Below, in pieces: positions 18,003 to 24,434 of a stretch of DNA of 64,000 nt. Made by a program: the position numbers and the translations under genes. Position 1 is the first letter of the stretch. Every line of letters starts with the position of its first letter. Source of the stretch: Natrinema longum (GTDB lineage Archaea; Halobacteriota; Halobacteria; Halobacteriales; Natrialbaceae); assembly GCF_017352095.1 (NCBI RefSeq), contig NZ_CP071463.1:3038001-3102000 (forward strand). Direction: 5' to 3'. Below the pieces are notes generated by a model. That model did no database searches, was not told the DNA's origin, and saw only the letters and a program-made list of their open reading frames with translations.

Positions 18003-18013
18003 TCCTAATTAAA
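18003..18013 (+). promoter_or_regulatory. AT-rich candidate promoter of the giant secreted protein gene
   Basis: The segment taattaaaag is the best TATA-like match in the gap before 18081. It lies about 70 bases upstream of the ATG, so if used it would leave a 5' leader of about 45 bases, unlike most genes here. A nearer AT-rich stretch (caaaaatac, about 18034-18042) is an alternative. Assignment is tentative. Confidence 0.3.
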
Positions 18014-18080
18014 AGTTACAGTCATATACGGGCAAAAATACAATCAGGATGTCGTTGACTCCCCAGACGGCGTGATAGCC

Positions 18081-21000
18081 ATGACAGACAGACATATCCG
18101 GGCAACACTACTTGCTGCCCTGGTGGTTTTATCGCTCGTCGCTGCCCCTATCGGGGCCGCAGGGATGAGTAGCGGTGCAGTACCGGCCACCGAACGAATT
18201 CAAGTACAGAACGACGACCCCTCACAGGTCGTCGAAAGCGTCAACGACAACGAGATCGCGACCGCAAACGACGCGATCACGTCGTTCAACGACGAACTCC
18301 AGCAGAAGGCTGGACTCGTCGGTGCCGACGTCGAGAACGTCGAACAGGTCGACCCGGTCGAGGCCGAGAGCGTCTCGGAGGCCCAGGCGGAAGTCGATCG
18401 CCTCCGGACCGACGCTGACGACCGACAGGCTGCGATTTTCGATCGAGTCGTCGCAGTGATCAACCAGGGCGGCATCGCCGACGTCGACCCCGAGGAGGTT
18501 CAGTCGCCAGCCGACGCACGCGATGTCGCCGACGACCTCGAAGCACAGGGCGGACTCGCCGAGACGGCGGCCCAGTCGCTGCGAGACGCCGCCGATATCG
18601 TCGAAACCGATATCCAACCCAACCTGAATAGCGCGGCCGACCAACTCGAGGCACTCGAGGAGCCCGAGCCGGCGGTCGGGACGGTCGAAGGGACCGTCAC
18701 CGATACGGATGGCGAGCCGGTCGCCAACGCCACTGTGGCCGTCGGCGACGAGCAGACGACGACCGCCGACGACGGCAGCTACGCGCTCGAACTCGAGAGC
18801 GGTGAGTACACCCTCGAGATCACTGCCGATGGCTACGAGGACGCCAGCGAGAACGTCTCGGTCGAGGCCGATTCGACCGCGACAGTCGACGTAGCCCTCG
18901 AGGCCACGGACGACGACGGGGACGAGGGCGACGAAGACGACTCGGATGAGGGATCGGACGAGGTCGCCACGACCGTCGAGAGCGTCAACGAAAACGAGGT
19001 CGCGACCGCGAACGACGCGATCGGCTCGTTCAACGACGAACTCCAGCAGAAGGCTGGACTCGTCGGTGCCGACGTCGAGAACGTCGAACAGGTCGATCCG
19101 GTCGAGGCCGAGAGCGTCTCGGAGGCGCAAGCGGAAGCCGATCGCCTCCGAGCCGGCGCTGACGACCGACAGGCTGCGATTTTCGATCGAGTCGTCGCAG
19201 TGATCAACCAGGGCGGCATCGCCGACGTCGACCCCGAGGAGGTCCAGTCGCCAGCCGACGCACGCGATGTCGCCGACGACCTCGAAGAACAGGGTGGACT
19301 CGCCGAGACGGCGGCCCAGTCGCTGCGAGACGCCGCCGATATCGTCGAAACCGATATCCAACCCAACCTGAACGGTGCAGCCGACCAACTCGAGGCACTC
19401 GAAGACGACGAGCCGACGCCGACTGTCGGCACCCTCGAGGGAACCGTCACCGACGAGGACGGCGAACCGATCGCCAACGCGACCGTCACCGTCGGCGACG
19501 AGCAGACGACGACCGCCGACGACGGCTCCTACGCGCTCGAACTCGAGAGCGGTGAGTACGAACTCTCCGTCTCGGCAGAGGGCTACGAGGACGCCAGCGA
19601 GAACGTCACGATCGAAACTAACTCGACTACGACCGTCGACCTCACCCTCGAGGCAGACGACTCCGAGAAGGGTTCGGAGGTTGCCGAGACAGTCGAAAGC
19701 GTTAACGAAAACGAGGTCGCGACCGCGAACGACGCGATCGGCTCGTTCAACGACGAACTCCAGCAGAAGGCTGGACTCGTCGGGGCCGATGTCGAGAACG
19801 TTTCGGAAGTCGATCCGGTCGACGCCGAGACCGTTTCGGAGGCCCAGGCGGAAGCCGATCGCCTCCGGGCCGACGCTGACGACCGACAGGCTGCGATTTT
19901 CGATCGAGTCGTCGCAGTGATCAACCAGGGCGACATCGCCGATGTCGACCCCGAGGAAGTTCAGTCGCCGGCCGACGCACGCGACGTCGCCGACGACCTC
20001 GAAGCACAGGGCGGACTCGCCGAGACGGCGGCCCAGTCGTTGCGAGACGCTGCCGATATCGTCGAAACCGATATCCAACCCAACCTGAACGGTGCGGCCG
20101 ACCAGCTCGAGGCACTCGAAGACGACGAGCAGACGCCGACTGTCGGCACTCTCGAGGGAACCGTCACCGATACGGATGGCGAGCCGGTCGCCAACGCCAC
20201 TGTGGCCGTCGGCGACGAGCAGACGACGACCGCCGACGACGGCTCCTACGCACTCGAACTCGAGAGCGGTGAGTACGAACTCACCGTCTCGGCAGAGGGC
20301 TACGAGGATGCCACGGAGAACGTCACGGTCGAGGAGAACTCGACTGTGACCGTCGACGTCTCGCTGGTGCGATCCGACGATACCGACTCGGCTGTCGGCA
20401 CAGTCGAAGGAACCGTCACCGACGAGGACGGCGAACCGATCGCCGGCGCGACTGTCAGTATCGACGACAAGCAGACGACGACCGACGACGACGGCTTCTA
20501 CGAATTCGAGATCCGGCCAACCGTCGGGACAGTCGACGGGACTGTCACCAACGCCGCCGGCGAGCCGGTCGGCGACGTGCCAATCACCGTCGGTGACAAG
20601 CAGACGACGAGCGCCGACGATGGCAGTTACGTCCTCGAACAGGGACTGGACGAGTACACCCTCGAAGTCAGTTCTGAGGGGTACGGAGACACCAGCGAAA
20701 CCGTGACCGTCGTCTCCGGCGAGACGACCATCCTCGATATCACCGTCGACGAGGAAGACGTCGAGCCCTCCGTCGGGACGGTCGCCGGAACCATCACCGA
20801 CGCCGCCGGCGAGCCGATCGTCAACGCGACCGTGACCGCCGAAGGTCTGGAGACGACGACTGCCGACGACGGCTCCTACGAACTCGAACTCGAGCCAGGT
20901 AACCACACGGTCACGATTTCGGCCGAGGGATACCAGAACGTCAGCGAAGTCGTGACAGTCGAGGCCGACGAGACGAACACTGTCGACGTGACGCTCGAGA

Positions 21001-24000
21001 AACTCGAGCCGACCGTCGGAACGCTCGCGGGAACCGTCACCGACGCCGATGGCGAAGCGATCGCGAACGCGACCGTGACCGTCGGCGACGAGCAGACGAC
21101 GACCGCCGACGACGGCTCCTACGCGCTCGAACTCGAGGAAGGCGACTACACCCTCGAGATCACTGCCGACGGCTACGAGAACGCCACGGCGAACGTCACG
21201 GTCGAGGCCGACTCGACTGTGACCGTCGATATCTCTCTCGAGGACGACTCGGACGAGGGATCGGGGTCGGTTGCGGAAGTCGTCGAAAGCGTTAACAACA
21301 ACGAGATTGCGGCTGCGAACGACGCGATCGGCTCGTTCAACGACCAGCTCCAGCAGAAGGCTGGACTCGTCGGGGCCGACGTCGAGAACGTCGAACAGGT
21401 CGATCCGGTCGACGCCCAGACCGTCTCGGAGGCCCAGGCGGAAGCCGATCGTCTCCGAGCCGACGCTGACGACCGACAGGCTGCGATTTTCGATCGAGTC
21501 GTTGCAGTGATCAACCAGGGCGGCATCGCCGACGTCGACCCCGAGGAAGTCCAATCGCCGGCCGACGCACGCGATGTCGCCGACGACCTCGAAGCACAGG
21601 GCGGACTCGCCGAGACGGCAGCCCAGTCGCTGCGAGACGCTGCCGACCTCGTCGAAAACGACATCCAGCCCGACCTGAACGGTGCGGCTGACCAACTCGA
21701 GGCACTCGAAGACGACGAGCCGACGCCGACTGTCGGCACCCTCGAGGGAACCGTCACCGACGAGGACGGCGAACCGATCGCCAACGCGACCGTCACCGTC
21801 GGCGACGAGCAGACGACGACCGACGACAACGGGAGCTATGTGATCGACCTCGAGGAGGGCGAGTACACCCTCGAGATCACTGCCGGCGGCTACGAGAACG
21901 CCACGGCGAACGTCACGGTCGAGGCTGATTCGACTGCGACCGTCGATGTCTCCCTCGAGGACGAGTCGGACGAGGGATCCGAGGTCGCCGAGACCGTCGA
22001 GAGCGTCAACGAAAACGAAATCGCGACCGCCAACGACGCGATCGGCTCGTTCAACGACAAGCTCCAGCAGAAGGCTGGACTCGTCGGAGCCGACGTCGAG
22101 AACGTCGAACAGGTCGACCCGGTCGAGGCTGAAACCGTCTCGGAGGCCCAGGCGGAAGCCGATCGCCTCCGGACCGACGCTGACGACCGACAGGCTGCGA
22201 TTTTCGATCGAGTCGTCGCAGTGATCAACCAGGGCGGCATCGCCGACGTCGACCCCGAGGAAGTCCAATCACCGGCCGACGCACGCGATGTTGCGGATGA
22301 CCTCGAAGCACAGGGCGGACTCGCCGAGACGGCGGCCCAGTCGCTGCGAGACGCCGCCGACCTCGTCGAAAACGACATCCAGCCCAACCTGAACGGTGCG
22401 GCCGACCAACTCGAGGCACTCGAGGACGACGAGCCGACGCCGACTGTCGGCACCCTCGAGGGAACCGTCACTGATGCCGACGGCGAGTCGATCGCCAACG
22501 CGACTGTCGTCGTCGGCGACGAACAGACGACGACTGCCGACGACGGCTCCTACGCACTCGAACTCGAGAGCGGCGAGTACGCACTCACCGTCTCGGCAGA
22601 GGGCTACGAGGACGCCAGCGAGAACGTCACGGTCGAGGCTGACTCGACCGTGACCGTCGACGTCTCCCTCGAGGAAGATGACGGGAGCGAACCGGCCCCG
22701 TCCGTCGGAACGGTCAACGGAACCGTCACCGATACGGACGGCGAAGCGATCGCTAACGCAATCGTGACCGTCGGCGGCGAGCAGACGACGACCGCCGACG
22801 ACGGCTCCTACGCGCTCGAACTCGAGAGCGGTGAGTACGCACTCACCGTCTCGGCAGAGGGCTACGAGAACGCCACGGCGAACGTCACGGTCGAGGCCGA
22901 CTCGACCGTGACCGTCGATGTCTCCCTCGAGGACGAGTCGGACGAGGGTTCGGAAGTCGCCGAGACCGTCGAGAGCGTCAACGAAAACGAGATCGCGACC
23001 GCGAACGATGCGATCGGCTCGTTCAACGACGAACTCCAGCAGAAGGCTGGACTCGTCGGTGCCGACGTCGAGAACGTCGAACAGGTCGATCCGGTCGAAG
23101 CCGAAACCGTCTCGGAAGCCACGGAGGAAGCCGATCGGCTCCGAGCGGATGCTGACGACCGCGAAGCCGCAATCTTCGATCGAGTCGTCGCAGTGATCAA
23201 CCAGGGCGGCATCGCCGACATCGACCCTGAGGAGGTTCAGTCGCCGGCCGACGCACGCGATGTTGCGGATGACCTCGAAGCACAGGGCGGACTCGCCGAG
23301 ACGGCGGCCCAGTCGCTGCGAGACGCCGCCGATATCGTCGAAAACGATATCCAGCCCAACCTGAATAGCGCGGCCGACCAACTCGAGGCACTCGAGGACG
23401 ACGATCCGACGCCGACCGTCGGCACCATCGAGGGAACCGTCAGCGATACGGATAGCGAGCCGATCGCCAACGCGACCGTCACCGTCGGCGACGAGCAGAC
23501 GACGACCGATGACAACGGGAGCTATGCGATCGATCTCGAGGAAGGCGAGTACACCCTCGAAGTCAGTGCCGACGAGTACGAAAGCACGAGCGAGACCGTC
23601 ACCGTCGACGCCGATGGGACCACGACCGTCGACGTCTCCCTCGAGGGGGACGATGGCGGGAGCGACCCGGCCCCGAGTGTCGGAACGGTCACGGGGACCG
23701 TCACCGACGAGGACGGCGAACCGATCGCTGACGCAACTATCAGCGCTGACGACGAGACGGTGACGACTGCCGACGACGGCAGCTACGAACTCGAGCTCGA
23801 GGACGGCGAGTACACCCTCGAGATTACCGCCGACGGCTACGAGGACGCAAGCGAAACCGTGAGCGTCGACGCCGACACGACCGTCACCGTCGACGTGACG
23901 CTCACCGAAACGGACGACGAGAGCGACGTCGATGTCATCGTCGACGCGGATATCGACGAGGACAGCGCTGCGGTCGGCGAGACCGTCACCGTCGACACCG

Positions 24001-24434
24001 ACATCGAGTCCGCAACTGATAACACGACGAAGATCAGCGCGCACACGCTCGTCGTCCGGTACGACTCCGACGCCCTCGAACTCGAGGATATCGATCGCCC
24101 ACACTGGCAGGTCATCGATATCGAGAACGAGGGGCTCTTGATCATTGCCCCGAACTGGGCGCCACCGCGACAGGACGACACACCGGTCGACGCCTTCACG
24201 GCCGAATTCGAAGTCGTCGATGGTGCCGGTGACGATGCGACGTTCGAGTTCGAGTCGGACGCCTCGGGCGTCCAGTCGGTCATCGTCGAAGACGATGGCT
24301 ACCTGTGGCGGACCGAAATGCTCGACGTCGAGTACGATGGTGCGTCCGTCACGATCGAGGACGGTGAAGAGACCGACGCTGCGGAACTGATCGCGGACGC
24401 CGGTAGCGCCGCGCAATCGGGTCTCGCTCCGTGA
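18081..24434 (+). CDS. Giant secreted repeat protein: helical modules, beta domains, cohesin-like end
   Basis: 2117 residues with a Sec-type signal peptide (RATLLAALVVLSLVAAPIGAAG). The mature chain alternates two modules. Six copies of a helical module of about 143 residues begin at residues 51, 299, 538, 1068, 1306 and 1630 (VESVN.NE...ANDAI.SFND to ADQLEALE). Twelve beta domains of about 80 residues (VGT..GTVTD.DGEPIANATV...TTTADDGSYALELE.GEY) are carboxypeptidase-regulatory-like; one is truncated (VSIDDKQTTTDDDGFYEFEIRP). From about residue 1950 a cohesin-like fold follows (VGETVTVDTDIES ... HTLVVRYDSDALELEDI). No PGF-CTERM, lipobox or membrane anchor is visible, so it may be released or held non-covalently. 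N-glycosylation sequons (NATV) recur. The helical module is unknown to me. ATG 18081 is preferred over GTG 18072. Confidence 0.9.
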   Translation: MTDRHIRATLLAALVVLSLVAAPIGAAGMSSGAVPATERIQVQNDDPSQVVESVNDNEIATANDAITSFNDELQQKAGLVGADVENVEQVDPVEAESVSEAQAEVDRLRTDADDRQAAIFDRVVAVINQGGIADVDPEEVQSPADARDVADDLEAQGGLAETAAQSLRDAADIVETDIQPNLNSAADQLEALEEPEPAVGTVEGTVTDTDGEPVANATVAVGDEQTTTADDGSYALELESGEYTLEITADGYEDASENVSVEADSTATVDVALEATDDDGDEGDEDDSDEGSDEVATTVESVNENEVATANDAIGSFNDELQQKAGLVGADVENVEQVDPVEAESVSEAQAEADRLRAGADDRQAAIFDRVVAVINQGGIADVDPEEVQSPADARDVADDLEEQGGLAETAAQSLRDAADIVETDIQPNLNGAADQLEALEDDEPTPTVGTLEGTVTDEDGEPIANATVTVGDEQTTTADDGSYALELESGEYELSVSAEGYEDASENVTIETNSTTTVDLTLEADDSEKGSEVAETVESVNENEVATANDAIGSFNDELQQKAGLVGADVENVSEVDPVDAETVSEAQAEADRLRADADDRQAAIFDRVVAVINQGDIADVDPEEVQSPADARDVADDLEAQGGLAETAAQSLRDAADIVETDIQPNLNGAADQLEALEDDEQTPTVGTLEGTVTDTDGEPVANATVAVGDEQTTTADDGSYALELESGEYELTVSAEGYEDATENVTVEENSTVTVDVSLVRSDDTDSAVGTVEGTVTDEDGEPIAGATVSIDDKQTTTDDDGFYEFEIRPTVGTVDGTVTNAAGEPVGDVPITVGDKQTTSADDGSYVLEQGLDEYTLEVSSEGYGDTSETVTVVSGETTILDITVDEEDVEPSVGTVAGTITDAAGEPIVNATVTAEGLETTTADDGSYELELEPGNHTVTISAEGYQNVSEVVTVEADETNTVDVTLEKLEPTVGTLAGTVTDADGEAIANATVTVGDEQTTTADDGSYALELEEGDYTLEITADGYENATANVTVEADSTVTVDISLEDDSDEGSGSVAEVVESVNNNEIAAANDAIGSFNDQLQQKAGLVGADVENVEQVDPVDAQTVSEAQAEADRLRADADDRQAAIFDRVVAVINQGGIADVDPEEVQSPADARDVADDLEAQGGLAETAAQSLRDAADLVENDIQPDLNGAADQLEALEDDEPTPTVGTLEGTVTDEDGEPIANATVTVGDEQTTTDDNGSYVIDLEEGEYTLEITAGGYENATANVTVEADSTATVDVSLEDESDEGSEVAETVESVNENEIATANDAIGSFNDKLQQKAGLVGADVENVEQVDPVEAETVSEAQAEADRLRTDADDRQAAIFDRVVAVINQGGIADVDPEEVQSPADARDVADDLEAQGGLAETAAQSLRDAADLVENDIQPNLNGAADQLEALEDDEPTPTVGTLEGTVTDADGESIANATVVVGDEQTTTADDGSYALELESGEYALTVSAEGYEDASENVTVEADSTVTVDVSLEEDDGSEPAPSVGTVNGTVTDTDGEAIANAIVTVGGEQTTTADDGSYALELESGEYALTVSAEGYENATANVTVEADSTVTVDVSLEDESDEGSEVAETVESVNENEIATANDAIGSFNDELQQKAGLVGADVENVEQVDPVEAETVSEATEEADRLRADADDREAAIFDRVVAVINQGGIADIDPEEVQSPADARDVADDLEAQGGLAETAAQSLRDAADIVENDIQPNLNSAADQLEALEDDDPTPTVGTIEGTVSDTDSEPIANATVTVGDEQTTTDDNGSYAIDLEEGEYTLEVSADEYESTSETVTVDADGTTTVDVSLEGDDGGSDPAPSVGTVTGTVTDEDGEPIADATISADDETVTTADDGSYELELEDGEYTLEITADGYEDASETVSVDADTTVTVDVTLTETDDESDVDVIVDADIDEDSAAVGETVTVDTDIESATDNTTKISAHTLVVRYDSDALELEDIDRPHWQVIDIENEGLLIIAPNWAPPRQDDTPVDAFTAEFEVVDGAGDDATFEFESDASGVQSVIVEDDGYLWRTEMLDVEYDGASVTIEDGEETDAAELIADAGSAAQSGLAP
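18231..23396 (+). repeat. Six-fold intragenic repeat array inside the giant gene
   Basis: The helical module is encoded six times, starting at 18231, 18975, 19692, 21282, 21996 and 22968. Spacing is 744, 717, 1590, 714 and 972 bases: a basic unit of about 715-745 bases (one helical plus one beta module), with extra beta modules inserted in the third, fifth and sixth units. Copies are near-identical at DNA level, including silent positions (for example gcagtgatcaaccagggcg recurs in all six). This points to recent tandem duplication or ongoing gene conversion. Confidence 0.9.

Follow-up and report, generated by a model that had tools for sequence, protein, structure and literature searches.

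Haloarchaeal cell envelopes have been described mainly through the surface-layer (S-layer) glycoprotein and the substrates of archaeosortases, and little is known about their accessory surface fibres. In haloarchaea, dockerins of type I have been reported on mannan- and glycosaminoglycan-degrading enzymes, where they were read as substrate-binding domains, and cohesin is mentioned in neither of the two papers (PMC10963439, PMC13260240). The sequence considered here is a stretch of 64,000 nucleotides of Natrinema longum, hereafter the window, in which positions 18081-24434 of the forward strand form one unbroken open reading frame (ORF) for a giant exported protein of 2117 amino acids plus stop. 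In this protein, six copies of a helical domain are interleaved with beta domains of the CarboxypepD_reg type, and the chain ends in a domain of predicted cohesin fold. The helical module is an undescribed domain family, and it is this family, together with its ties to the S-layer, that is new, rather than any system resembling a cellulosome. With a probability of roughly 0.6, the giant protein is an exported haloarchaeal cell-surface fibre that works at the S-layer or by way of it, with adhesion, contact between cells or a part in the extracellular matrix as its most likely roles.

Domain Architecture of the Giant Protein

The reading frame starts with an ATG at 18081 (an in-frame GTG lies at 18072) and its stop codon ends at 24434, within a genome of 3.59 Mb that consists of a single contig (Natrinema, Natrialbaceae) and in which the window spans C1:3038001-3102000. 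A putative Sec-type signal peptide occupies approximately residues 1-28 (18081..18164), with a mean Kyte-Doolittle (KD) value of 2.3 in its hydrophobic core. The protein is strongly acidic, with a net charge of -498 counted over D, E, K and R, and contains no cysteine. The combination of signal peptide, strong acidity and absence of cysteine is consistent with export in a halophile, and agrees with the initial annotation, made from the sequence alone, in which a giant secreted modular surface protein had been proposed. The protein contains 27 N-glycosylation sequons, compared with 12.9 +/- 3.2 in shuffled sequences, and 25 of these lie neither in helical modules nor in the cohesin domain but in beta domains and linkers.

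Profile searches give the domain order H-b-H-b-H-b-b-b-b-b-H-b-H-b-b-H-b-b-COH, where H is the helical module, b the beta domain and COH the cohesin-fold domain. All features lie on the forward strand. The helical modules are H1 (residues 50-193; 18228..18659), H2 (298-441; 18972..19403), H3 (537-680; 19689..20120), H4 (1067-1210; 21279..21710), H5 (1305-1448; 21993..22424) and H6 (1629-1772; 22965..23396). H1, H2 and H3 are followed by b1 (199-277; 18675..18911), b2 (449-527; 19425..19661) and b3 (688-766; 20142..20378), respectively. The run between H3 and H4 continues with b4 (772-811; 20394..20513), truncated to its first half (model positions 1-40 of 79), b5 (815-893; 20523..20759), b6 (898-975; 20772..21005) and b7 (979-1056; 21015..21248). 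After H4 comes b8 (1218-1295; 21732..21965), after H5 come b9 (1456-1534; 22446..22682) and b10 (1542-1619; 22704..22937), and after H6 come b11 (1780-1858; 23418..23654) and b12 (1867-1945; 23679..23915), which lead to the cohesin-fold domain (approximately residues 1950-2095; 23928..24365). The alternation of helical and beta parts that had been proposed is real in its components; it is not strict, given the runs of beta domains between H3 and H4, between H5 and H6, and between H6 and the cohesin domain.

The family proposed for the beta domains proved correct: CarboxypepD_reg (PF13620) matches above its cut-off with 651.5 bits in total over 12 stretches (E-value 7.8e-201), and the profile search likewise finds 12 domains, 11 full and one truncated. 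Other entries in the best 25 of the 29 Pfam matches, among them Dioxygenase_C, EMC7, CooC_C and Shr-like_HID, were set aside as cross-hits of a similar beta sandwich on the repeated domains. NCBIfam S-layer and SusC matches of 312, 226 and 226 bits were rejected as lying far under their cut-offs of 1400, 700 and 368.

An Undescribed Module with a Predicted Four-Helix Fold

The six helical copies, first estimated at about 143 residues, are each exactly 144 amino acids long, with identities of 91-95% at the protein level and 89-94% at the DNA level. An alignment of sixteen divergent copies taken from genomes of Natrialbaceae spans the whole length of the module. AlphaFold2 modelling of H5 places helices at 2-31, 49-80, 94-107 and 110-141 with a mean predicted local distance difference test (pLDDT) score of 96, a high-confidence prediction of a four-helix bundle. 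An up-down four-helix bundle would put both chain ends on one side, so the bundles may project sideways off the chain, to judge by the order of the helices. The polar residues N6, N14, E55, N79 and R98 are invariant across members down to about 40% identity, and the alignment shows no invariant grouping of His, Cys or Asp such as metal-binding or catalytic sites typically have.

The module had been presented as belonging to no assignable family, and profile searches and modelling bear this out. Searches at E-values up to 1 gave no Pfam family for a representative copy and no PDB sequence for the module. In NCBIfam all matches of the representative copy are far under the cut-offs, and other members give only weak E-values there, with cut-offs unstated. 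Foldseek returns no PDB structure for the model at an E-value of 0.001 or below. The best VIA Z score, 8.6, lies within the range of the common helical-bundle arrangement. It belongs to the talin rod fragment VBS2 (1u89), which shares the four-helix arrangement (root mean square deviation, rmsd, 3.2 over 103 residues) at only 9% identity; since Z scores below about 13 can be reached by a common arrangement, no relationship is claimed. Talin, CdvB, copper-storage and ferritin-like bundles (VIA Z 6-9) were all treated in this way, and a MazG-like NCBIfam match (18.5 bits, with the cut-off at 148, in two of the 16 members) was considered helical background. Keyword searching of the open-access literature found no description of the module.

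Distribution and Evolution of the Module

The module was found in 14 of 125 genomes in a family-level search. A wider profile matched 21 genomes among 391 of the class, all but one of the 21 in Natrialbaceae; the single match outside (E-value 5.9e-4) lies in a frame that reads as a short-chain dehydrogenase/reductase (SDR)-type dehydrogenase and is probably a chance match. A phylum-level sample of 393 genomes added no module outside Natrialbaceae, and the family is essentially confined to this group. No relatives of the helical module were found on viral contigs or plasmids; whole-protein matches on plasmids, several annotated as CarboxypepD_reg-type, have less than 60% identity and were discarded.

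The contexts in which the module is found are diverse. Single copies occur in lipoproteins with a lipobox exported by twin-arginine translocation (Tat) (loci L045, L048, L049), and single H-b proteins have PGF-CTERM-type or polytopic membrane ends (L042, L043, L044, L047). Arrays with two to six helical modules belong to Natrinema, and copy number ranges overall from 1 to 6. In nearly all multidomain members b directly follows H, which defines an H-b unit; this does not hold for the C-terminal copies of L041 or for the ORFs of L048 and L049 with two copies. Shorter relatives of about 100 amino acids are also found in Tat- or Sec-exported proteins (L063 and L070 of Natrinema, L062, L048, L049), with up to three copies and acidic linkers between them.

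In a tree of the modules the copies group by genome, the pattern expected from repeated duplication and homogenisation. The exceptions are a separate second type common to L036, L038 and L040, and some pairings by position, for example that between the first module of the source strain and the first module of Natrinema ejinorense JCM 13890 (L035), whose module is 96% identical to that of the source genome. The ratio of non-synonymous to synonymous substitution rates (dN/dS) between helical copies is 0.09-0.26, which indicates that they are under purifying selection and are not a chance repeat. Between the source strain and the N. ejinorense strain it is 0.09 for the first modules and 0.20 for the cohesin domain. 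The giant protein is under purifying selection, and its length would be adjusted through duplication and homogenisation of the helical-plus-beta unit.

A Probable Association with the S-layer

Indications of where the module acts come from its relatives. In one genome (L046), an S-layer-type glycoprotein of 1.5 thousand amino acids carries a fused H-b unit at its C-terminal end. Its BGTF surface domain (NF045517) scores 69.9 bits (cut-off 40) and its surface-glycoprotein signal 28.4 bits (cut-off 24.6). This fusion protein (L046:3358-7947) also has a PGF-like C-terminal stretch. In a second genome (L047), the H-b protein has a hydrophobic stretch at its C-terminus, and the adjacent gene encodes a protein with the BGTF domain, the surface-glycoprotein signal and PGF-CTERM, all above cut-off. 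In a third (L042), the H-b gene lies beside genes for two large exported proteins that, by eye, resemble these. The export signals of the relatives and their varied anchors (Tat lipobox, PGF-CTERM, polytopic C-termini) further support a location at the cell surface. Altogether, these data point to the helical module as part of the haloarchaeal cell surface, as a structural or adhesive module associated with the S-layer.

With regard to the giant protein itself, its beta domains would be N-glycosylated in-line spacers forming a stalk, along which the six four-helix bundles may be displayed as repeated structural or binding modules, while the terminal cohesin-fold domain could serve as an interaction head. 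The protein would have no membrane anchor itself and would work at the S-layer or through it. Several observations weigh against a surface fibre of this kind. Pfam and NCBIfam profile searches found no PGF-CTERM match in the giant protein, and the NCBIfam search found no BGTF domain (NF045517). The haloarchaeal surface-glycoprotein signal (halo_sig_pep, TIGR04207) scores 13.8 bits, below its cut-off of 24.6, and the protein has neither a lipobox nor a transmembrane tail. Its immediate neighbours, named by reading their sequences as asd, an alpha/beta hydrolase, an MMPL-type transporter and LUD-type genes, have no surface function. Given the absence of these S-layer marks and the nature of the neighbours, the link to the S-layer is made through the relatives and not through the locus.

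The lack of an anchor also argues for the alternative that the protein ends up in the medium as a component of the extracellular matrix or biofilm, with no attachment to the S-layer. The C-terminal tail (24366..24431) is too weakly hydrophobic for a membrane anchor, with a best 19-residue KD mean of 0.4; tails of the orthologues L037, L038 and L039 reach a moderate 1.4-1.6, unlike those of the giant protein and N. ejinorense. Nonetheless, most module relatives outside Natrinema are anchored, and the module is fused to or adjacent to S-layer genes, which makes release unlikely.

The Cohesin Domain and Its Possible Dockerin Partners

The cohesin-like end that had been proposed was recovered both by profile and by fold. 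Cohesin (PF00963) matches the giant protein with 26.5 bits (cut-off 24.1), covering only profile positions 3-50 of 139; in a second search with this profile the protein scored 25.3 bits, and six of the seven alignment members also matched. Support over the whole domain comes from the predicted fold. The AlphaFold2 model is of modest confidence (pLDDT 64; predicted template modelling score, pTM, 0.58). The Foldseek matches listed for it, 2xdh among them, are cohesins or entries that contain a cohesin, with E-values from 2e-8, and VIA superposes it on 2vo8 with a Z score of 14.0 (rmsd 2.4, 131 aligned residues). According to the model, the C-terminal domain has a genuine cohesin jelly-roll fold.

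Cohesins were found in 111 of the 125 Natrialbaceae genomes, against 55 with dockerins, and the presence of a cohesin is thus no sign that a dockerin exists as well. Most of the 111 genomes have cohesin matches in ORFs of about 250-400 amino acids, whether or not dockerins are present; in the source genome itself, C1:14411-14761 encodes a small protein that is anchored in the membrane and has one cohesin domain.

A non-cellulosomal scaffoldin, whose cohesin would hold dockerin-bearing enzymes at a distance from the cell set by the H-b array, has to be considered at this point. The initial annotation had suggested a scaffold or an adhesin and a search for dockerins in the same genome. The source genome has no Dockerin_1 match over the Pfam cut-off. 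A haloarchaeal dockerin alignment does find one divergent dockerin at C1:3491650-3491832, at the C-terminus of a PhoX-like phosphatase (L094, L096), and nothing else convincing; this sequence is itself included in the alignment, which makes its score there circular. A neighbouring gene with a PGF-CTERM-like end seemed cohesin-like by eye and was rejected, having no Pfam support. In favour of a scaffoldin, apart from the modelled fold, dockerin proteins are numerous (7, 15, 5 and 5) in four of the five Natrinema genomes that encode a giant with a cohesin end. A hand-calculated hypergeometric test for this association gives p values of 0.054 when any dockerin counts and 0.001 when at least four are required; the latter threshold was picked after the data were seen, and the genomes are few and from related strains. 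In the near-identical N. ejinorense, moreover, the dockerins are on glycoside hydrolase family 5 (GH5) cellulase-type enzymes.

The GH5 cellulase-type cluster of this species (L088; C1:3193000-3212500), in which most enzymes have C-terminal dockerins, also encodes an fn3/PKD/CBM5_12-like protein in which two stretches look cohesin-like to the eye; the cluster is possibly a haloarchaeal enzyme-complex locus.

Against the scaffoldin, this fn3/CBM5_12-like protein would be the more obvious partner of those enzymes. The giant protein has a single cohesin per chain and no carbohydrate-binding module (CBM) among the best 25 of its 29 Pfam matches, its genome has only the divergent dockerin mentioned above, and two Natrinema orthologues (genomes G053 and G056) keep the helical/beta core without any cohesin. 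The scaffoldin is therefore improbable, although the dockerin-rich relatives leave some room for dockerin binding by the cohesin. The fusion and adjacency of H-b units with S-layer-type genes in the relatives favours an adhesin or surface fibre instead, and the giant protein is probably a fibre or adhesin on the cell-surface layer and not a cellulosome-like scaffold. Thus the adhesin half of the initial proposal gains from the S-layer ties, the dockerin-organising half is weakly supported, and the observation as a whole was real and well described but partly over-interpreted. A helical module with an activity of its own, such as an enzyme or a binder of ligands or ions, and the remainder as a mere presentation stalk is very improbable: the invariant polar residues and the occurrence of the module alone in Tat lipoproteins would fit, but the alignment shows no cluster typical of metal or catalytic sites, no clear match to a solved fold was found, and the MazG-like scores are weak and restricted to two members.

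Genomic Context

Upstream of the gene, a block of about 70 nucleotides (18008..18080) is common to seven Natrinema orthologues, and the sequence farther upstream is not conserved among them. The block may comprise a promoter plus 5' leader, judging from its position and conservation, and a genome search found no second copy of the leader elsewhere in the source genome. The LUD-type genes and the alpha/beta hydrolase recur beside the gene in Natrinema, yet without a functional link, and were rejected as operon partners.

Implications and Comparison with Known Systems

The ties of the module family to the S-layer, its strong purifying selection and its rapid change in copy number provide a handle on adhesion, cell recognition and matrix building in haloarchaea. 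A broader proposal, put forward tentatively, is that the module founds a Natrialbaceae-specific extracytoplasmic family in which the H-b unit is an S-layer plug-in: fused to the lattice protein in one genus, anchored to lipid or membrane in others, and polymerised into giant fibres with cohesin tips in Natrinema, whose tips could tether dockerin enzymes in some strains. If so, the tips would make up a haloarchaeal surface scaffold system in those strains, and the cohesin tip makes the surface attachment of dockerin enzymes in haloarchaea directly testable.

Compared with cellulosomal scaffoldins such as CipA, the giant protein is likewise a modular exported protein carrying a cohesin fold, but it has one cohesin, no CBM among the Pfam matches listed, and a genome with a single recognised dockerin, a divergent one, in place of a set of dockerin enzymes. 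It shares the predicted jelly-roll fold with solved cohesins, including the non-cellulosomal cohesin of Archaeoglobus fulgidus (2xdh); unlike these, its domain is a single copy of 10-19% identity, has no dockerin partner nearby and is optional among orthologues. All twelve beta domains belong to the CarboxypepD_reg/PEGA-type group (PF13620, PF13715, PF08308), and the giant protein multiplies them to 12 copies and intersperses them with an undescribed helical domain. With respect to haloarchaeal S-layer glycoproteins, the giant protein has none of the BGTF domain, the TIGR04207 signal or PGF-CTERM above cut-off, but it is likewise acidic, sequon-rich and exported, and relatives of its module are fused to these glycoproteins or encoded beside them.

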